Notes under the pieces: model-generated
Told to the model about the DNA's origin: nothing
What the model saw: the letters and a program-made list of their open reading frames with translations, nothing else
Databases searched by the model: none
Origin: Cellvibrio mixtus subsp. mixtus J3-8
GTDB taxonomy: Bacteria; Pseudomonadota; Gammaproteobacteria; Pseudomonadales; Cellvibrionaceae
Length of the DNA stretch: 64,000 nt
Assembly (NCBI RefSeq): GCF_000766945.1
Contig: NZ_KN266214.1
Location: forward strand, 54,602-118,601
Direction of reading: 5' to 3'
Shown here: piece by piece, positions 21,935 to 57,050 of the stretch
How positions within the stretch are numbered: position 1 is the stretch's first letter
Layout of the letters: each line of letters opens with the position of its first letter
Translations under genes and position numbers: made by a program

Positions 21935-22765
21935 TTAGAAAGGAAAAAATGATCCAGGAAATTCGCCTTTACGTATCAACGCAGCGATATCCATGCTCAA
22001 TGCAACGCCCGCGTGCACCAAAACACCGCCCCAGATCGAGCGCGATTGCAGTGCCAGGATACCGAGGAACAGGCCGAACAAAATGGCGCCGGTAGCTTCC
22101 AGCCAAAGCTTGGGGAAATGAATCATCAGGTAGGGCACACACATCACCCAAATCGCATTGGCGCCAATAGCCGGACGCAAGGCATTGAGCATAAAGCCGC
22201 GGAAGAAAAACTCCAGGAATATAAACTGGCTCATGTAAAGCAATTCCCACAGCAGGAAATCCAGCCAGCTGCGGCCCGCGTGGCGATAGAACGGATAATG
22301 CCCGACAAAATCCTCTCCCATGCTGACCAAGACCACAAACACCAGGATTGGACTGAGCAGCAGCAGGTAACCGCGCCAATGCTCGCCGACCTGGTTCCAG
22401 CGCCAGCCAAAGTCGCGCATTTGTGCGCGGAATATAAAGCGTATCACCAGCCAGGGCAGCACGATAAAAGTCAGCAGGTGGCAACCCGTCCACCACACAT
22501 AACTACACAACTCTAACCAACCGGCGTCGCGCAATTGTTGCAAGTAATCCACACCGCGCCTTTCACCTAACGATTGCAACAAGGCATGGAGATTGGTGGC
22601 GAATTTGCCGTAATGGAGGATGAGCAAGCTGACTGACACCGTTGCCAATACGATGAACACCCGCCGTAACGCTTCGGGGCGGGACATTTGCCAGGAAGGT
22701 GCCGCTGCATCGATCTGGTCCAGGGCGCGCAATATCTGGCGCGGATGCAAAGCGGCAAGTTTCAT
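21935..22765 (-). CDS. CPBP-family intramembrane metalloprotease homologue
   Basis: A 276-aa membrane protein with about seven hydrophobic segments. The C-terminal half carries the CPBP (CAAX protease/bacteriocin-processing) motifs: EFFFRGFMLNAL, a histidine in YLMIHFPKLWLE and GVLVHAGVALSMD. The first glutamate of the usual EExxxR pair is replaced by leucine, so activity is uncertain. The frame is open up to 22891, but that would overlap the upstream hydrolase by 95 nt. The ATG at 22765 leaves a 31-bp gap and starts a normal protein. It probably forms a transcription unit with the serine hydrolase at 22797-24569. Confidence 0.78.
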   Translation of the reverse strand: MKLAALHPRQILRALDQIDAAAPSWQMSRPEALRRVFIVLATVSVSLLILHYGKFATNLHALLQSLGERRGVDYLQQLRDAGWLELCSYVWWTGCHLLTFIVLPWLVIRFIFRAQMRDFGWRWNQVGEHWRGYLLLLSPILVFVVLVSMGEDFVGHYPFYRHAGRSWLDFLLWELLYMSQFIFLEFFFRGFMLNALRPAIGANAIWVMCVPYLMIHFPKLWLEATGAILFGLFLGILALQSRSIWGGVLVHAGVALSMDIAALIRKGEFPGSFFPF

Positions 22766-27803: not shown

Positions 27804-27832
27804 TTGTCTTATTGCTGTCACATAATTGCCAT
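27804..27832 (+). promoter_or_regulatory. Pho box (three 11-bp-spaced PhoB half-sites) upstream of ppk
   Basis: TTGTCTT (27804), CTGTCAC (27815) and TTGCCAT (27826) are spaced exactly 11 bp apart, the PhoB tandem-repeat geometry around consensus CTGTCAT-N4. A possible -10 (CAAAAT, 27842-27847) lies nine bases after the last unit. Together they suggest phosphate-starvation activation of ppk, as known in other gammaproteobacteria. Confidence 0.7.
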
Positions 27833-27870
27833 AATCTGGCGCAAAATCCGGTGTGTAAATGAGGTCCAAG

Positions 27871-29934
27871 GTGTCCAACGCCTATTTCAATCGCGAACTG
27901 AGCCTGCTCGAATTTAACAAGCGCGTGCTTCACCAAGCTTACAATCGCAATTTGCCCTTGCTGGAACGGCTGCGTTTTTTGTGTATTTTTTCCACCAACC
28001 TCGATGAGTTTTTTGAAGTGCGCGTCGGCGGGCTGGTGGAAATTTTGGAGCGCAACGCACCGCCCACCCACGGGCCGGATGGCATGACCCAAACCCAGAC
28101 CCTGAATGAAATTTCCCTGCGCGCCCACGAACTGGTGGCCGAACAATACCGCATCCTCAATAGCGAATTGCTGCCGTCCATGCGCGACCACGGCATCCAG
28201 GTGTTGCGCCGCGAAGATTGGACCCCGGAACAAATCCAATACCTGAAACATATTTTTTTGTCCGATGTGCTGCCGGTATTGAGTCCAATCGGGCTCGACC
28301 CCGCGCACCCGTTTCCGCGCATCCTCAATAAAAGCTTGAACTTTATTGTCCGGCTCGATGGCAAAGATGCCTTTGGCCGCAACTCGGGCCGCGCGATTGT
28401 GCAGGTGCCACGTTCGCTGCCGCATATCATTGAATTGCCCGAAGCCCTGAGCCATAACGGACGCAATTTCGTATTTATTTCCTCCATCATCCATTTTTTC
28501 ATGGCCGAAATATTCGTCGGTATGACGGTGATGGAGAGCTACCAATTCCGTCTCACCCGCAACTCGGACATTTTCCTCGACGAAGAAGAGACCGACGATT
28601 TATTGCGCGCGGTACAAGGTGAACTGGCATATCGCCAGTACGGTGATGAAGTACGCCTGGAACTTACCGACACCTGCCCGTCTGAACTGGAGCAATTTCT
28701 ATTGCAGCGTTGCGAAATTAAAGAGCGCGATTTGTACCGCATTAACGGGCCGGTGAATTTGAATCGCTACAGCGATTTGTTCGATCTGGTGAAAGATGCG
28801 CAGCATTATTTCAAGCCATTTATGCAAGCAATGCCCAAGTTGCCCAAGCGGACTAACTCGTATTTCGAAGTGCTGCAAAAACAGGATATTTTGCTGCATC
28901 ACCCCTTCGATTCATTCCAGGGTGTGGTGGACTTCTTGCGCGAAGCGGCCACCGATCCAAACGTGTTGGCGATTAAACAAACGCTGTATCGCACCGGTTC
29001 CAATTCGCCGATTGTGGATGCGTTGGTTGCCGCTGCCAAAGCCGGCAAGGAAGTCACCGCGATTGTGGAATTGCGCGCGCGTTTTGACGAAGAGCAAAAC
29101 GTCGCCCTCGCCGAACGCTTGCAGCGTTTTGGTATCCACGTGATTTACGGCGTGGTCGGCTTTAAAACCCACTCCAAAATGATTCTGGTCGCGCGCCGCG
29201 AAACCGGAAAATTACGTTACTACGTGCACCTGGGTACCGGTAACTATCATCCGCGCACCAGTAAAATTTATACCGATTACGGTTTGCTCACGTCCGATAA
29301 AGAAATCGGCGAAGATGTGTATCGCATCTTTTTGCAATTATCGAGCATGGGCAAAGCCTCCAAAATGGAAGCGCTGTTATACGCCCCATTCACCTTGCAC
29401 AGGGGCATGGTAAAACGTATCCGCACGGAAAAGGAAAACGCCGAACACGGCAAGCCGGCGCGCATCATCGCCAAGATGAATGCGCTGTACGATGAGGAAT
29501 TGGTGAATGAACTTTACGCTGCCTCGCAAGCGGGCGTGCAGATCGATTTGATTGTGCGCGGTGTTTGCCAGTTGCGTCCGGGCGTTGAAGGCTTATCGGA
29601 AAACATCCGCGTGCGTTCGATTATCGGCCGCTTCCTTGAGCACCATCGCGTGTTTTATTTCGAGAATAGCGGCAACCCCGAATTGTTCTGTTCCAGCGCT
29701 GACTGGATGCTGCGCAACATGTTCCACAGGGTCGAGACCTGCTTCCCGATCAAGCACAAGAAAATCCGCGACCGGATTCTGGAAGACCTGCATTTGTACC
29801 TGGCCGATAACACCCATGCGTGGTTATTGCAGGACGACGGCAGTTATATCCTCACCCAGCCCAAAGAAGGTGAAGAAACAATTGATGCACAGGCTGTGTT
29901 ATTGGAGCGTTGGTCCGCGCATATCAGCAATTAA
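27871..29934 (+). CDS. ppk: Polyphosphate kinase 1
   Basis: A 687-aa enzyme that reversibly polymerises ATP gamma-phosphate into polyphosphate. The N-terminal YFNRELSLLEFNKRVL, the phospho-histidine in GFKTHSKMILV, and YVHLGTGNYHPRTSKIYTDYGLLT (positions about 440-480) identify PPK1. The second histidine region is near the C-terminus. An in-frame ATG at 27859 is often taken as the start. However, GAGG at 27861-27864 lies six bases before a GTG at 27871 and would be inside that longer frame, so I favour GTG. ppx lies 3.7 kb away on the other strand. Confidence 0.96.
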   Translation: MSNAYFNRELSLLEFNKRVLHQAYNRNLPLLERLRFLCIFSTNLDEFFEVRVGGLVEILERNAPPTHGPDGMTQTQTLNEISLRAHELVAEQYRILNSELLPSMRDHGIQVLRREDWTPEQIQYLKHIFLSDVLPVLSPIGLDPAHPFPRILNKSLNFIVRLDGKDAFGRNSGRAIVQVPRSLPHIIELPEALSHNGRNFVFISSIIHFFMAEIFVGMTVMESYQFRLTRNSDIFLDEEETDDLLRAVQGELAYRQYGDEVRLELTDTCPSELEQFLLQRCEIKERDLYRINGPVNLNRYSDLFDLVKDAQHYFKPFMQAMPKLPKRTNSYFEVLQKQDILLHHPFDSFQGVVDFLREAATDPNVLAIKQTLYRTGSNSPIVDALVAAAKAGKEVTAIVELRARFDEEQNVALAERLQRFGIHVIYGVVGFKTHSKMILVARRETGKLRYYVHLGTGNYHPRTSKIYTDYGLLTSDKEIGEDVYRIFLQLSSMGKASKMEALLYAPFTLHRGMVKRIRTEKENAEHGKPARIIAKMNALYDEELVNELYAASQAGVQIDLIVRGVCQLRPGVEGLSENIRVRSIIGRFLEHHRVFYFENSGNPELFCSSADWMLRNMFHRVETCFPIKHKKIRDRILEDLHLYLADNTHAWLLQDDGSYILTQPKEGEETIDAQAVLLERWSAHISN

Positions 29935-50923: not shown

Positions 50924-50957
50924 CTGTCATAAATGTGTAACACTGAACTTATTTAAT
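50924..50957 (+). promoter_or_regulatory. Pho box and -10 of the phoBR promoter
   Basis: CTGTCATAAATGTGTAAC (50924-50941) reads as two PhoB half-sites (first one perfect, second 5/7) with the 4-bp spacer. A TTTAAT -10 lies ten bases further (50952-50957), as in PhoB-activated promoters. It is about 60-90 bp upstream of the phoB start and indicates autoregulation. Confidence 0.75.
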
Positions 50958-51019
50958 AAGCTGCAACAATAGCTTCATAAACCATGGAGCGCCCCGTAGT
51001 TATTTCAGGCAGAACACCT

Positions 51020-51718
51020 ATGACTGGTCGCAAAATTCTGATCGTTGATGATGAATCCGCTATTCGCGATATGTTGCGCGTGGCACTGGAGATGGCCGAG
51101 TATCAGGTCATGGAAGCAAGTAATGCGCAGGATGCCCACGGACTGATTATCGACGAAAAACCGGATTTGATCCTGCTCGACTGGATGATGCCCGGCACCA
51201 GCGGTATTGAGCTGGCGCGCCGCTTGAAGCGCGATGAAGTCACCGCCGGAACCCCGATCATTATGCTGACGGCCAAAGGCGAGGAAGATAACAAAATCCA
51301 GGGCCTTGAGGTCGGCGCCGACGATTACATCACCAAACCTTTTTCCCCGCGTGAACTGGTAGCCCGCCTGAAGGCGGTACTGCGCCGCGCCGATCCCCAA
51401 ATCAATTCTGCACCTATCACCGTACAAGGCTTGTGCCTTGATCCGGCCAGCCACCGCGTGACAATTAACAATCAATCCGTGGACATGGGCCCCACCGAAT
51501 ATCGCCTGCTGGAATTTTTCCTGACCCACCAGGAAAGGGCTTATACTCGCAGCCAACTCCTGGATCACGTCTGGGGCGGCAATGTTTATGTGGAAGAGCG
51601 CACGGTGGATGTCCATATCCGCCGCTTGCGCAAAGCCCTCACCATCGACGGCCACGAAGACCTGATCCAGACCGTACGCGGTACCGGTTATCGTTTTTCT
51701 ACCCGTATTGAAGCCTGA
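51020..51718 (+). CDS. phoB: Phosphate regulon response regulator PhoB
   Basis: A 232-aa OmpR-family regulator. The receiver domain has [15 protein letters not shown] (acidic pocket) and the phospho-acceptor in [16 protein letters not shown] (near D54). The C-terminal winged helix shows [28 protein letters not shown]-type conservation (key part [10 protein letters not shown]) and [12 protein letters not shown]. The ATG at 51020 fits the usual length; an ATG at 50984 would add twelve residues. A Pho box precedes it, and phoR follows by 112 bp. Confidence 0.96.
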   Translation: [232 protein letters not shown]

Positions 51719-51830: not shown

Positions 51831-53117
51831 TTGTTAAAAGGTTTCAGCACCGAACTCCAGCGTATCCTGGTCATCCTTGTTATCTGCAGTGTGATTGGTT
51901 TTTTCAGCGATCACTATTTGCTGTGGATGCTCTTCGGCTGCGCCGTTTACATCATCTGGATGCTCTGGCAAATGCGTCGCCTTAACCAATGGCTGGTGCG
52001 CCAGGAAAGCGAACATCCTCCCGAGGCCAGCGGTATCTGGGGCCAGATCTTCGACAATATCTACCAACTGCAACGCGACCAGCGTCTGGAAAAAGAAAAC
52101 CTTCAGGCGGTGATAAAACGTATCCAGGAAATCAGTTCGGCGCTAAAAGATGGTTTGGTGATTCTGGATGCTCGCGGCCATCTGGATTTCTGGAATCCGG
52201 CGGCGCACCGTATGCTTGCACTTAGCACCAAAGACCAGGGCCAATCGGTCATCAACTTTATTCGCCACCCCAAATTCGTCGCCTACTTTGAAGAAGGCAA
52301 TTACGAAGAGCCGCTGGAGCTGCCATCAACACGCTTTCCCTCAAAGCACCTGCAATTCCAGATCACATTGTTCGGCAAGAACGAGCGCCTGATTGTGATC
52401 CGCGATGTGACCCAGCTGCACAATCTGGAAAAGATGCGCCAGGATTTTATTGCTAACGTTTCCCACGAATTACGCACACCGCTGACAGTGATTAACGGCT
52501 ATGTGGAAACCCTCGCCGATAACAATACAACACCCGGTTGGGATAAGCCCTTGCAGCAAATGTCGCAGCAATCCAAGCGCATGTCGTTACTGATTAACGA
52601 TTTGCTGGTTCTCTCCAAACTGGAAACAACTGAAGCAGGGCACAACCACAAGCCGATCAATATCGAACAGCTACTCGCCATCGTTAAGAGTGAAGCGGAT
52701 GTATTGAGCACCGAGAAAAGCCAGCAACTGACGTTGATCTGCAACAACACAACAAAACCGCTCCTGCTGCACGGCAACGAAAAAGAGTTACACAGCGCTT
52801 TTTCCAATCTTGTCACCAACGCTATTAAATACACACCGCCGGAAGGCAAAATCAGCATGCTGCTGTGGCAGGACCAAAAACATTTTTACTTTTCCGTGAG
52901 CGATAACGGGCCAGGCATTGAAGCCCAGCATATCCCGCGCTTGACCGAGCGTTTCTATCGTGTGGATGCCAGCCGCAATAGCAGTACTGGCGGAACCGGT
53001 TTGGGTTTGGCGATCGTAAAACATGTGCTCATGCGTCATGATGCTGAACTGCAAATTACCAGCGAACCCGGTAAGGGCAGTATGTTTATTTGCGTCTTCC
53101 CGCTGCCGCATAAATGA
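51831..53117 (+). CDS. phoR: Phosphate regulon sensor histidine kinase PhoR
   Basis: A 428-aa inner-membrane kinase. Two close membrane helices near the N-terminus (about 10-50) have no large periplasmic loop, typical of PhoR. Then come a PAS domain (about 95-190), HisKA with FIANVSHELRTPLTVINGY (about 205-223) and HATPase with LVTNAIKYTPPEGK, DNGPGIE and STGGTGLGLAIVKH. The likely start is TTG at 51831 with GAGAGG nine bases upstream. It works with PhoB and, probably, the PstSCAB-PhoU system elsewhere. Confidence 0.95.
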   Translation: MLKGFSTELQRILVILVICSVIGFFSDHYLLWMLFGCAVYIIWMLWQMRRLNQWLVRQESEHPPEASGIWGQIFDNIYQLQRDQRLEKENLQAVIKRIQEISSALKDGLVILDARGHLDFWNPAAHRMLALSTKDQGQSVINFIRHPKFVAYFEEGNYEEPLELPSTRFPSKHLQFQITLFGKNERLIVIRDVTQLHNLEKMRQDFIANVSHELRTPLTVINGYVETLADNNTTPGWDKPLQQMSQQSKRMSLLINDLLVLSKLETTEAGHNHKPINIEQLLAIVKSEADVLSTEKSQQLTLICNNTTKPLLLHGNEKELHSAFSNLVTNAIKYTPPEGKISMLLWQDQKHFYFSVSDNGPGIEAQHIPRLTERFYRVDASRNSSTGGTGLGLAIVKHVLMRHDAELQITSEPGKGSMFICVFPLPHK

Positions 53118-53417
53118 GCATGACACTTTTCTGGCGTCAAATGACAACCTTGTCACTTTTCTCCCCACTTGTCTGAAAATCGAACGCTGACTGCTATAGC
53201 AAACGGAATTTTCTCCCAAATTCGAACTTCTTTCTAAAACTCTTACCCTGAAAACGGAAAGTCGGACTCGCCAAAACAACGTTGTCATTTTAGACTCGCT
53301 CCACATGCAATGAACCTGACGCCAAGTTCGGTTGACTTGCATGAGTTACATAACAAAGCGAACACCCCAAGGTTCGCCCCGCTATATGACCAATCTAAAT
53401 TACCCAGGAGATTGAGA
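53118..53417 (+). other. Promoter region of the LPMO gene
   Basis: A 300-bp gap without a supported gene. It carries several TGTCA/TGACA words (for example near 53121, 53141, 53150 and 53283), but none show the 11-bp spacing of a Pho box. AGGAG at 53406-53410 is the LPMO ribosome site. Confidence 0.5.
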
Positions 53418-54584
53418 GTGAAAAAGACAATAATGAAATGCGGTGTTTCCGCTGTAGTACTGGGCTCTTTACTGGCTGCTGGCCAGGCATTTGCCCACGG
53501 ATATATTTCTTCTCCAAAAGCGCGCTACATCCAATGTGCTGAGAACGGTATTGAAAACCCGTCTCACCCTGCATGTATCGCTGCCAAGGCAGCTGGTAAC
53601 GGCGGCCTGTATACCCCACAAGAAGTTGCTGTGGGCGGCGTAAAAGACAACCATGAGTTCTTCATTCCCGATGGTCGCCTCTGCTCTGCAAACCGTTCCA
53701 ACCTGTTTGGTATGGATCTGGCGCGCACTGATTGGCCTGCTACCGCTGTAACTGCTGGTCCACGCACTTTCACCTGGACTAACACTGCTGCGCACAAAAC
53801 CATGTACTTCCGTTACTACATCACCAAACAAGGTTACAACCACAGCCAACCACTGCGTTGGAGCGATCTGGAATTGATCCATGATTCCGGTAAAGCAGAC
53901 CAGGAAGCCGTTTCCAACCACGTAGTAAACCTGCCAGCACGTACCGGTCGTCACATTGTGTACAGCATTTGGCAACGTGACTGGGAGCGCGACGCAGCTG
54001 AAGGTTTCTATCAGTGTGTGGATGTTGACTTCGGTGGCAGCACTTCTTCTGTAGCTAGCACCAGTTCATCTGTGAAGAGCTCTTCTTCTGTGGCGTCTTC
54101 AGTAGCCTCTTCTGTGGCTTCAAGTGTATCTAATGACACTTGCGCTGGCCTGCCAACCTGGAGCGCAAGCAGTACTTACACTAACCCACAACAAGTGAAG
54201 CACAACAACAAGCGCTACCAGGCTAACTACTGGACCCAAGGCAATGACCCAACCACCAACTCTGGCCAATACAGCTACTGGTTGGATCTGGGTGCGTGTG
54301 CTGGAAGCCCGACCTCTTCTTCAGTTGCGTCAAGCGCTGTAGTGAGTTCATCCAGCAAATCAAGCACTGCTGTTTCCAGCGTAGCGTCTTCAGTATCAAC
54401 TGGTAACTGTACTTCTCCTGCTTACGTAAATGGTTCTACCTACGCGAATGGCGCCAAGGTAACCAACGGTGGTAGCGAGTATCAATGTACTGTTGCCGGC
54501 TGGTGTAGCGTTGGCGGCCCATACGCTCCAGGCACCGGTTGGGCTTGGGCGAATGCGTGGTCTTTGGTTCGCAGCTGTAACTAA
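53418..54584 (+). CDS. Secreted lytic polysaccharide monooxygenase AA10-CBM5-CBM73
   Basis: A 388-aa secreted copper enzyme for oxidative chitin cleavage. The signal peptide ends AFA at residue 26, exposing the N-terminal His27. The second copper histidine is H126 in NTAAHK and the axial Phe is F197 in EGFYQCVDVDF. After a Ser/Val linker (about 207-239) comes CBM5 (CAGLPTWSASSTYTNPQQV, about 242-295), then a second linker (297-328) and CBM73 (about 331-388). This order is exactly that of the chitin-active CjLPMO10A of Cellvibrio japonicus. GTG is the preferred start, with AGGAG seven bases upstream. Codon use is unusually T-ending and uniform, as in a highly expressed gene. Confidence 0.93.
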   Translation: MKKTIMKCGVSAVVLGSLLAAGQAFAHGYISSPKARYIQCAENGIENPSHPACIAAKAAGNGGLYTPQEVAVGGVKDNHEFFIPDGRLCSANRSNLFGMDLARTDWPATAVTAGPRTFTWTNTAAHKTMYFRYYITKQGYNHSQPLRWSDLELIHDSGKADQEAVSNHVVNLPARTGRHIVYSIWQRDWERDAAEGFYQCVDVDFGGSTSSVASTSSSVKSSSSVASSVASSVASSVSNDTCAGLPTWSASSTYTNPQQVKHNNKRYQANYWTQGNDPTTNSGQYSYWLDLGACAGSPTSSSVASSAVVSSSSKSSTAVSSVASSVSTGNCTSPAYVNGSTYANGAKVTNGGSEYQCTVAGWCSVGGPYAPGTGWAWANAWSLVRSCN

Positions 54585-54634
54585 TACGTAAGGATTTACA
54601 CCGGAATTTCCTGCAAGTTAATCCGGAGTAAAAT

Positions 54635-54669
54635 AAAAAACGGCAATCCCACAAGGATTGCCGTTTTTT
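54635..54669. terminator. Bidirectional terminator between LPMO and DUF2141 genes
   Basis: AAAAAACGGCAATCC pairs with GGATTGCCGTTTTTT around loop CACAA. It lies between convergent stops and serves both strands. Confidence 0.92.
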
Positions 54670-54671
54670 AT

Positions 54672-55088
54672 TTAGCGCAACTGAATTTCTATTTCAGTGG
54701 CTTTATCCAGTAACACCTTGGCTTCCTCAAAAGAGGGTTGGCCAAAACTGCCACCACTATTGGAAAACCCGTAAGGCTCGGTGGGAATGCCAATAGAATT
54801 CTTATCGATAAAACCATTGTCATTTTCATCCTGGAATAACTTTACCGCATAGTGACCAGCGGGAAGATCCCCCAGCGAAATGAGGATTGGTCCTTCCACC
54901 ATTTTGATTTTCCGTACTGTAACCCACTGGTTATTACTGTCGTAATGCGCAGCTTGATCGTAAACCGCTACCAGTAAACTGCCATTAACATTTTTTACCT
55001 TATCTACCTTCAGCGTCAGCTCATGGGCCAGTGACGGCACACCGAACGCAACCAATGCCATACCTGCCAGCGTCATTATCATTTTCAT
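54672..55088 (-). CDS. DUF2141 family exported protein
   Basis: A 138-aa protein with a signal peptide (about 1-22, SLAHE) and one beta-sandwich domain. Motifs of DUF2141 include GSLLVAVYDQAAHYDSN, LPAGHYAVKLFQDENDNGFIDK and GIPTEPYGFSN. The Asp-rich DENDNGFID loop may bind calcium. Function is unknown. AAGGAG precedes the ATG. It is convergent with the LPMO gene. Confidence 0.85.
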   Translation of the reverse strand: MKMIMTLAGMALVAFGVPSLAHELTLKVDKVKNVNGSLLVAVYDQAAHYDSNNQWVTVRKIKMVEGPILISLGDLPAGHYAVKLFQDENDNGFIDKNSIGIPTEPYGFSNSGGSFGQPSFEEAKVLLDKATEIEIQLR

Positions 55089-55289
55089 CGCAAAACTCCT
55101 TATTTAGTTTGGGTAAACACAACAACAGAATAATGAGCCGCGCTTCATTACACAGGTGTCATTTCTCAGTAATTCGCGATGACAAGGCTCACCAGATGCC
55201 GATGACAAATGTCCTGATTTACTAACAGAGGTTTGCCATTAAGCGTGCGCGATCACTGACAAATACCGACCGGCTGCTAAAGGTGCAGG

Positions 55290-57050
55290 TTATATTTCCT
55301 GAAAGGCCGCCGATTGTAATTGTAATCGCGCAAGCTGCTGATATAACTCGCTATTGGACATCAACTGTTGATGCGTACCGCTCGCCACAATTTTTCCCTG
55401 TTGCAACACCAGAATTCGATCAGCATTAATCACCGTTGATAACCGATGCGCAATCATAATCGTGGTGCGGTTTTGCATTAAACGCTCCAGCGCCTGCTGC
55501 ACAATTTGTTCACTGTTGGAATCCAGCGCACTGGTCGCTTCATCCAATAATAAAATCGGACGATCCGCAAGAATTGCACGCGCAATTGCGATACGCTGTT
55601 TTTGTCCACCGGATAACCGTACCCCGCGCTCACCCAAAAAGGTATCCAGTCCCTCCGGTAATTTTTCAATAAATTCCATCGCAAACGCCGCATCGCACGC
55701 CGCCAATACATCCATATCTGTTGCATCCGGGCGCGCATAGCGCACGTTATCGCGCAGGCTTGCAGCAAATATCACCGGATCTTGCGGGACCAATGCAATA
55801 CGTTCACGCAATGCATGGATATCTGCTTCACGGATATTTATACCGTCCAATAAAATCTCACCGGCGTGTGGATCATAAAATCGTTGCAGCAACTGAAACA
55901 CCGTCGTTTTACCAGCACCGGACGGCCCCACCAACGCAATTTTTTCGCCGGGATTAATGTGCAAATTAAATTGTTCGAACACCGGCGCATCGGGGCGCGA
56001 TGGATAAGCAAATACAATATCGCGCATAGTTAATGCGCCGGTTGCAGGGACGGGCAACGCCACCGGATTGTTCGCCAGGGGTAATCCCGAAGGTGTTACC
56101 AATAATTCCACCAATCGTTCGGTAGCACCCGCCGCACGCTGCACATCGCCAATCACTTCCGAAATAGTCCCCATCGCACTGGCAACAATCACCGCGTAAA
56201 AAATAAACGCAGATAACTCACCGCCAGTAATCTCGCCACTTAATACATCGTGACCACCTACCCATAAAATTAATGCAACAGCACTGAATACCAACGTGAT
56301 TACGGCCGCGACCAGTAGTGCGCGCTGACGCACACGTTGAATACCCGTCGCAAAGGTTGACTCCACGCGCTGGTTAAATTCATACGCGGAAGCGGCTTCG
56401 TGACCGTAAGCCTGCACGGTGCGGATTTCATGGATAACTTCATCAGTGTAAGCACCAACATTAGCCACCGAATCCTGGCTCGCTCGCGCCAGGCGGCGCA
56501 CACGACGACCAAACGCAATAATCGGCACCAACACAAACGGAATCGCCAACAACACCAATAACGTGAGTTTCAAACTGGTGATTGCAAGCATCACCAATCC
56601 ACCCAATAACAAAAGTGCATTGCGTAGCGCCATAGAAACACTGGAACCAATAACCGTTTCCAGCTGCGTGGTGTCATTGGTTAAACGCGAGAGCACATCA
56701 CCCGTGCGGTTCTGTTCAAAAAATGAGGGAGAAAGCGTGAGCAAATGGGAAAACACACGGCGACGCAGATCCGCTGTAATGCGCTCCCCCAGCCAGGACA
56801 CCAGGTAAAAACGCGCATAGGTCGCGAGCGACATCACCAGAATCACCACCAGCAACCCCAGCAGCGCGTAATTCAATAGTTCCGGGCTACCCGCTACAAA
56901 CCCCTTATCAATTACCTGTTTCAAACCCTGGCCAATCAGCAGCACCGAAGCAGCGGCAACCACTAACGCCAGCAACGCGAAACTTATGCGCACACGGTAA
57001 GGGCGAATTAAATCAAGCAGAATCTGGCGGCGGGAGAGAGGCAGGGTCAT
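55290..57050 (-). CDS. ABC exporter half-transporter (MsbA/multidrug type)
   Basis: A 586-aa protein with a six-helix ABC membrane domain (about 15-310) fused to an ATPase domain. The nucleotide-binding motifs are GPSGAGKTTVFQLLQRFYDP (Walker A), LSGGQKQRIAIARAIL (signature) and ILLLDEATSALDS (Walker B). The frame extends to 57110, but AGGAC is well placed for the ATG at 57050. It probably works as a homodimer for lipid or drug export; substrate unknown. It lies alone, upstream of the DUF2141 gene on the same strand. Confidence 0.9.
   Translation of the reverse strand: MTLPLSRRQILLDLIRPYRVRISFALLALVVAAASVLLIGQGLKQVIDKGFVAGSPELLNYALLGLLVVILVMSLATYARFYLVSWLGERITADLRRRVFSHLLTLSPSFFEQNRTGDVLSRLTNDTTQLETVIGSSVSMALRNALLLLGGLVMLAITSLKLTLLVLLAIPFVLVPIIAFGRRVRRLARASQDSVANVGAYTDEVIHEIRTVQAYGHEAASAYEFNQRVESTFATGIQRVRQRALLVAAVITLVFSAVALILWVGGHDVLSGEITGGELSAFIFYAVIVASAMGTISEVIGDVQRAAGATERLVELLVTPSGLPLANNPVALPVPATGALTMRDIVFAYPSRPDAPVFEQFNLHINPGEKIALVGPSGAGKTTVFQLLQRFYDPHAGEILLDGINIREADIHALRERIALVPQDPVIFAASLRDNVRYARPDATDMDVLAACDAAFAMEFIEKLPEGLDTFLGERGVRLSGGQKQRIAIARAILADRPILLLDEATSALDSNSEQIVQQALERLMQNRTTIMIAHRLSTVINADRILVLQQGKIVASGTHQQLMSNSELYQQLARLQLQSAAFQEI

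Follow-up and report, generated by a model that had tools for sequence, protein, structure and literature searches.

The window analysed here is a 64-kb stretch (64,000 nucleotides) of the genome of Cellvibrio mixtus subsp. mixtus J3-8, which is genome G000 among the 21 genomes of the genus that were compared. As the preliminary description had stated, it holds an LPMO gene directly behind phoBR, on the same strand and 300 bp after phoR; phoB and phoR were identified by the models given with the other features of the locus in Table 1. The LPMO gene starts with GTG and encodes 388 amino acids. The upstream start at 53310 of the mechanical ORF is disfavoured, and the GTG region at 53417-53422 is invariant in an alignment of 11 genomes, as is a Shine-Dalgarno-like GAGAT run at 53408-53412.

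Table 1. Features of the locus (window positions) and operator core sites in the genome of strain J3-8 (contig:position)
Feature	Position	Strand	Remarks
PHO-box-like site before phoB	50924..50941	+	3 mismatches; comparison site
phoB	50984..51718	+	TIGR02154 above cut-off
phoR	51831..53117	+	TIGR02966 above cut-off
phoR-LPMO intergenic region	53118..53417	+	no PHO box at 3 mismatches, no terminator recognised
Distal NagR-type operator	53140..53157		AATGACAACCTTGTCACT; clear in 4 of 11 genomes
Proximal NagR-type operator	53272..53289		CAAAACAACGTTGTCATT; overlaps 17-column invariant run
LPMO gene	53418..54584	+	signal peptide (1-26), AA10 (mature His = residue 27), CBM5, CBM73
Terminator-like hairpin	54631..54673		CGGCAATCC-CACAA-GGATTGCCG, A and T runs on flanks
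Core sites before GH18	C1:341878, C6:159868		own genome
Core site before GH19 with CBM5/12	C2:532461		own genome
Core site before GH20	C5:78258		own genome
Core site before nagK-nagP-nagX-nagA-nagB	C2:103085		own genome
Core site before AraC-type gene/TonB receptor/GH18 cluster, GH20 just upstream	C7:136740		own genome
Core sites at TonB receptors	C2:109938, C2:109974, C3:164283		own genome
Core site before MCP	C3:14688		own genome
Core site before acetyl-CoA synthetase	C8:73521		own genome
Core sites before three genes of unknown role	C1:146252, C2:483987, C12:54940		own genome
One-mismatch cores before GH18	C1:709315, C2:234285, C2:654438		own genome

The module order AA10-CBM5-CBM73, proposed earlier as a Cellvibrio type, was confirmed by domain and structure matches. 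Pfam places LPMO_10 (PF03067, 168 bits) at residues 27-203 and CBM_5_12 (PF02839, CBM5, above cut-off) at residues 247-288, while the AA10 part, the middle and the C-terminus match the AA10, CBM5 and CBM73 of CjLPMO10A in 5fjq (E 9.7e-108), 6z40 (E 5.9e-25) and 6z41 (E 3.2e-27), respectively. The mature N-terminal H27 and H126 align with 5fjq, and we take these two residues to be the copper ligands. The LPMO tree included the own-genome paralogues on contigs C6, C8, C9 and C15, without the one on C2 and without the AA10 row G008_b, for which no mature start was found; the LPMO falls in a 13-row group with the protein of genome G002 (support 99/94), apart from its own-genome paralogues. The AA10 domain of the G002 protein equals 5fjq over all 180 residues, and the two LPMOs are 75% identical over residues 10-387, although their signal peptides are unalike (23%). 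Judged from its sequence, the LPMO is orthologous to CjLPMO10A of Cellvibrio japonicus, which carries CjCBM5 and CjCBM73 (PMC8449059) and whose domains it shares in the same order. Oxidative cleavage of chitin is the predicted activity.

The gene had also been described as lacking chitinase neighbours, and none of the seven GH18 genes found in a genome-wide search lies on its contig; the genome holds six AA10 genes. A scan of the larger ORFs between 41.3 and 63.6 kb, 20 in number with the LPMO counted and four of them without a Pfam match, found no glycoside hydrolase; one ORF is a divergent polysaccharide deacetylase. Between the LPMO gene and a convergent DUF2141 gene lies the terminator-like hairpin, with a fold z of -5.66, which is absent from the output of the consensus terminator scan.

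Codon use was compared by CAI with a reference of 24 genes of ribosomal-protein clusters, rpoA included, named from sequence and order. The LPMO scores 0.725, the highest of the 44 non-overlapping window ORFs of at least 150 aa (next 0.662), and the reference genes themselves, left out one by one, average 0.706 (range 0.60-0.79). The very high expression that had been read from codon choice is upheld, because the codon use of the LPMO is ribosomal-protein-like and the strongest in the window; it differs from the genome average as far as the 64-kb window shows. The accompanying statement that the codons end in T and the neighbours are GC-richer stands in part: GC3 is 0.488, compared with 0.565 for the pooled window, and T (0.333) hardly exceeds C (0.328) at third positions. 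Elsewhere in the genome the other five AA10 genes reach 0.50-0.65, the seven GH18 genes 0.53-0.67 and dnaK 0.677. With own-genome weights throughout, the mature parts of the phoR-adjacent LPMO genes, here called slot genes, score 0.615-0.752 in 11 genomes and those of the other tested AA10 genes 0.51-0.683, two of the latter, in G008 (0.683) and on contig C8 of G000 (0.674), lying above the lowest slot gene, that of G004 (0.615). The slot LPMO exceeds the C-terminal part of phoR (0.53-0.59) in each of the 11 genomes.

An LPMO gene about 280-370 bp after phoR occurs in 11 of the 21 genomes (G000, G001, G004, G005, G006, G007, G009, G010, G014, G016 and G017). In G002, G003, G008 and G011 a full-length AA10 of the CjLPMO10A kind is found only away from phoR, and in G012, G013, G015, G018, G019 and G020, with a completeness of 77% for G013 and 92% for G019, no full-length close LPMO match was detected. 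The phoR tree covers 19 genomes, without G015 (no close PhoR match) and G018 (PhoR missed by the motif filter), and unites all 11 adjacency genomes with G002 and G019 in a single clade of 13 (100/99). A single simple gain of the adjacency was considered and set aside, as the tree does not resolve G002 and has G019 inside the clade. G019 carries phoR, a 35-residue DUF2141 remnant and an ABC transporter gene (L180, G019:C267, 6149-6276), the last 85% identical to the orthologue in the window, and there is no LPMO on its 8-kb phoR contig. With nothing but that remnant separating phoR from the transporter gene, G019 has probably lost its LPMO from behind phoR.

The many TGTCA words reported for the 300-bp gap are present as four TGTCA/TGACA words. 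When the window is cut into 1274 overlapping tiles of 300 bases, seven tiles contain at least four such words; three of these overlap the phoR-LPMO gap, and the other four fall ahead of the DUF2141 gene, at 55001-55450. Three of the four words in the gap sit in two copies of a LacI-type operator with the core GACAACGTTGTC. When the intergenic regions of the 11 phoR-adjacent genomes were aligned, the 17-column run ACAACGTTGTCATTTTA at 53276-53292 was the only invariant run of more than six columns, the next, of six, being at the start codon; it covers one arm of a LacI-type palindrome and half of the other. The proximal operator is present in all 11 genomes, while the distal one is clear in G000, G009, G016 and G014 and weak in G001 and G005. 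Like the window LPMO, the G002 gene has a NagR-type operator upstream (about 120-140 bp, score 21.1), despite lying 2.3 Mb, in coordinates, from its phoR. No operator was found upstream of the LPMO orthologues in G003 and G008 or of the AA10 gene of G011, which belongs to the paralogue clade; all three genomes have the NagR candidate described below.

The operator matrix was built from 17 other own-genome sites, which score 18.8-25.9 when left out one by one. With it the distal operator outscores every other 18-mer of the window (18.88), an intragenic match at 22632 comes second (17.5) and the half-degenerate proximal operator third (17.35). The maxima of 30 Markov 64-kb windows average 12.2, and one of the 30 reaches 18.0. 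By score the proximal operator is not outstanding, and its weight comes from its invariance in 11 genomes and from the G002 site. No sigma-70 promoter was recognised by a scan of the phoR-LPMO gap; our guess at one, taken from the alignment, is a TTGTCA/TGCAAT pair that overlaps the operator. A GACTC repeat stands on either side of the proximal operator (53258-53300) and is kept in most of the 11 genomes.

The search for further sites started from the consensus of the Shewanella NagR operator, at no more than two mismatches. Of the six places that it returned in the own genome, against none for the control, two are immediately ahead of GH18 genes, one is the distal LPMO operator and three lie outside chitin contexts as judged from the neighbouring ORFs (C2:162982, the only perfect match, C13:8801 and C13:22111). 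Across the 21 genomes the core GACAACGTTGTC was found at 221 sites and its reversed control at 30 (own genome, 14 and 1; G002, 11 and 6), and a one-mismatch core search in G002 gave 18 matches against 48 control matches. The own-genome sites (Table 1) put the operator ahead of five of the seven GH18 chitinases, the GH18 gene at C2:67001 having no core upstream, and the core precedes the nag operon in G002 as well. The sites C2:109938 and C2:109974 fall within the 5' end of a mechanically called ORF. They are identical cores spaced by 36 bp where a TonB receptor gene has its 5' end, and G002 has such a pair too (C1:1358659/1358695); the spacing recurs in G001, G004, G005 and G006.

On contig C2 a LacI-family gene at 96260-97312, one of five in the genome, adjoins nagB. 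The G002 counterpart of this gene lies at C1:1369851-1370897, and orthologues of the C2 gene, at 82-100% identity, occur in 20 of the 21 genomes, counting a partial copy in G019 and a copy in G008 with one reported in-frame TAG; in G012 the best match is 43%, and G012 is also the only genome with no core sites. NCBIfam gives the protein no curated name, all its matches being below cut-off, as is NagX. This gene beside the nag genes is likely NagR. None of the other five own-genome AA10 genes has an AACGTT-type operator. The AA10 paralogue on C2 (L144) has a variant site, GACAGCGCTGTC, at -339, which scores 16.0 and may belong to another LacI protein. The GACAGCGCTGTC palindrome was also seen near another LacI gene (L150:4317), and sites of this type are perhaps a sister regulon for another polysaccharide. 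The second AA10 gene of G016 (C26) has a two-mismatch operator just upstream.

Among the nearest known systems is the NagR regulon of Shewanella oneidensis, which comprises nagP, nagK-nagBII-nagA, ompNag, mcpNag-hex and cbp. As PMC3223726 reports, the LacI-family repressor NagR bound in EMSA upstream of nagP, nagK, mcpNag, ompNag and cbp, the nagK shift was lost with GlcNAc, and deletion of nagR raised the five transcripts 5- to 50-fold, that of cbp (SO1072, linked to chitin by the authors) 5-fold. The predicted Cellvibrio regulon resembles it in its targets nagK, nagP, nagA, glucosamine-6-P deaminase and TonB receptors, and also in having an MCP, a hexosaminidase and a chitin-binding protein gene among them. 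It differs in that the operator also stands before GH18, GH19 and acetyl-CoA synthetase genes, and in that binding by NagR was shown in Shewanella, whereas the transcription factor here is predicted and named by no curated model. Shewanella cbp is presumably itself an AA10. RegPrecise may include a C. japonicus NagR entry. PMC5343134 lists NagR for 25 genomes from four groups of proteobacteria and describes chitin genes as frequent members of GlcNAc regulons; its main text makes no mention of Cellvibrio. As for the enzyme, PMC11497827, a study of growth on fungal necromass, presents LPMO10A as physiologically important when alpha-chitin is the growth substrate and as abundant in the secretome, and reports its gene as up on low-melanin necromass relative to glucose and not up in an exponential-versus-stationary comparison. 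In the literature searched, PMC2996990 included, nothing was found that links NagR to a Cellvibrio LPMO or that deals with the control of CjLPMO10A, a much-studied chitin LPMO. Both the enzyme and the type of regulon are therefore familiar, while operator coordinates in Cellvibrio were not found in print within that literature.

We consider it very likely that the LPMO is a major chitin-active enzyme of the GlcNAc/chitin regulon and not of the Pho regulon, derepressed by GlcNAc through the NagR candidate. When chitin sugars are lacking, the NagR candidate would occupy both operators upstream of the LPMO; as chitin is broken down, GlcNAc or a derivative would enter the cell and release NagR from them. 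The LPMO would then be transcribed from its own putative promoter, alongside the chitinases, the hexosaminidase, the TonB receptors and the nag operon, and its mRNA translated with ribosomal-protein-like codons. The secreted enzyme would bind chitin by CBM5 and CBM73, and the predicted copper site of AA10 would make the oxidative cut. Because the region upstream of the LPMO carries an operator common to chitin/GlcNAc genes, phoBR are probably just neighbours and the position behind phoR incidental. That place is kept within one clade and is not needed for NagR-type control: the LPMO of the window lies behind phoBR, that of G002 far from phoR.

The phosphate link hinted at in the preliminary description fared poorly, as no PHO box of the level seen at phoB and ppk lies in the gap and the operator is kept in G002 far from phoR. 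With a PHO-box pattern of 14 positions, the window has PHO-like repeats before phoB (Table 1) and, in tandem, before ppk (27804 and 27815, 3 mismatches each), just ahead of the polyphosphate kinase gene at 27859-29934. The best fit in the phoR-LPMO gap has 5 of 14 mismatches, and the 11 adjacency genomes have 4-6. Seven 3-mismatch matches occur in the window, where shuffles average 4.2 and 13 of 100 reach seven; single matches of this kind mean little, the count being near shuffle level. At 27804-27832 the two PHO-box-like matches overlap, as three 7-bp words at 11-bp spacing, and the DUF2141 gene too has a 3-mismatch site ahead of it, at 55156. The TGTCA words were rejected as PHO boxes on account of the poor PHO fit and of the three that sit in LacI-type operators.

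Since the consensus scan recognised no terminator after phoR, read-through from phoR into the LPMO could occur. Joined to the LPMO's own operator, this would allow a dual input, in which Pho-dependent read-through from phoBR supplements the NagR-controlled promoter and tops up the enzyme at low phosphate; we think it unlikely, as there is no direct sign of read-through and the scan misses terminators, the hairpin behind the LPMO among them. The operator might instead belong to a LacI-family protein other than the one beside the nag genes. With five LacI-family genes in the genome, and with the variant core GACAGCGCTGTC near the LacI gene of L150 as a sign that related operators coexist, such a protein is conceivable but very unlikely, given that the core precedes the nag operon both here, next to the NagR candidate, and in G002, and that candidate and core are both missing from G012. 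Least probable is a Pho-regulon gene, served by PhoB boxes or phoBR read-through and used, for example, in freeing phosphate-bearing material from fungal walls: the shared strand, the 300-bp distance with no recognised terminator and the adjacency in 11 of 21 genomes would suit it, but the 11 intergenic regions have no PHO-like site of the phoB/ppk level (a level that is itself close to chance), the G002 gene carries the operator while standing away from phoR, and the codon use of the LPMO surpasses that of phoR in all 11 genomes.

In the LPMO tree nine slot genes group with CjLPMO10A, but those of G001 and G005 (L019, G001:C5; L020, G005:C78) fall in the clade of the G000 paralogue on C8 (99/99). 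The signal peptides of these two are 92% identical to that of the G010 slot gene and 27-35% to those of the paralogues, whereas over AA10 residues 1-60 the identity is 85-90% with paralogues but 51-54% with slot genes; the break lies at the shared mature N-terminus (HGYVSSPKSR). The remaining AA10 is still nearer to paralogues (74-87% against 62-73%), CBM73 shows 80-88% against 82-87%, and the second linker is nearer to slot genes in most comparisons. As the second linker and CBM73 are not clearly paralogue-derived, only a part of each slot gene may have been exchanged. The intergenic operator is retained in both genomes. In the phoR tree G001 stands nearer to G010, G017 and G019 than to G005 (98/93), which implies that the exchange happened twice, was transferred between lineages, or was followed by a reversal.

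These results name a candidate regulator for Cellvibrio, locate its putative operators and predict the regulon, and the operator analysis corrects a tempting reading of the LPMO, by guilt of neighbourhood, as a phosphate gene. In G001 and G005 nature offers an apparent example of a catalytic domain exchanged while the promoter region and signal peptide stayed constant. We lean, by a little, towards regarding the place behind phoR as a fixed and strongly expressed slot, made of a NagR-controlled promoter and a signal peptide, for an exchangeable catalytic cargo; if this is true, recombination swaps the catalytic domain of the LPMO under constant regulation.
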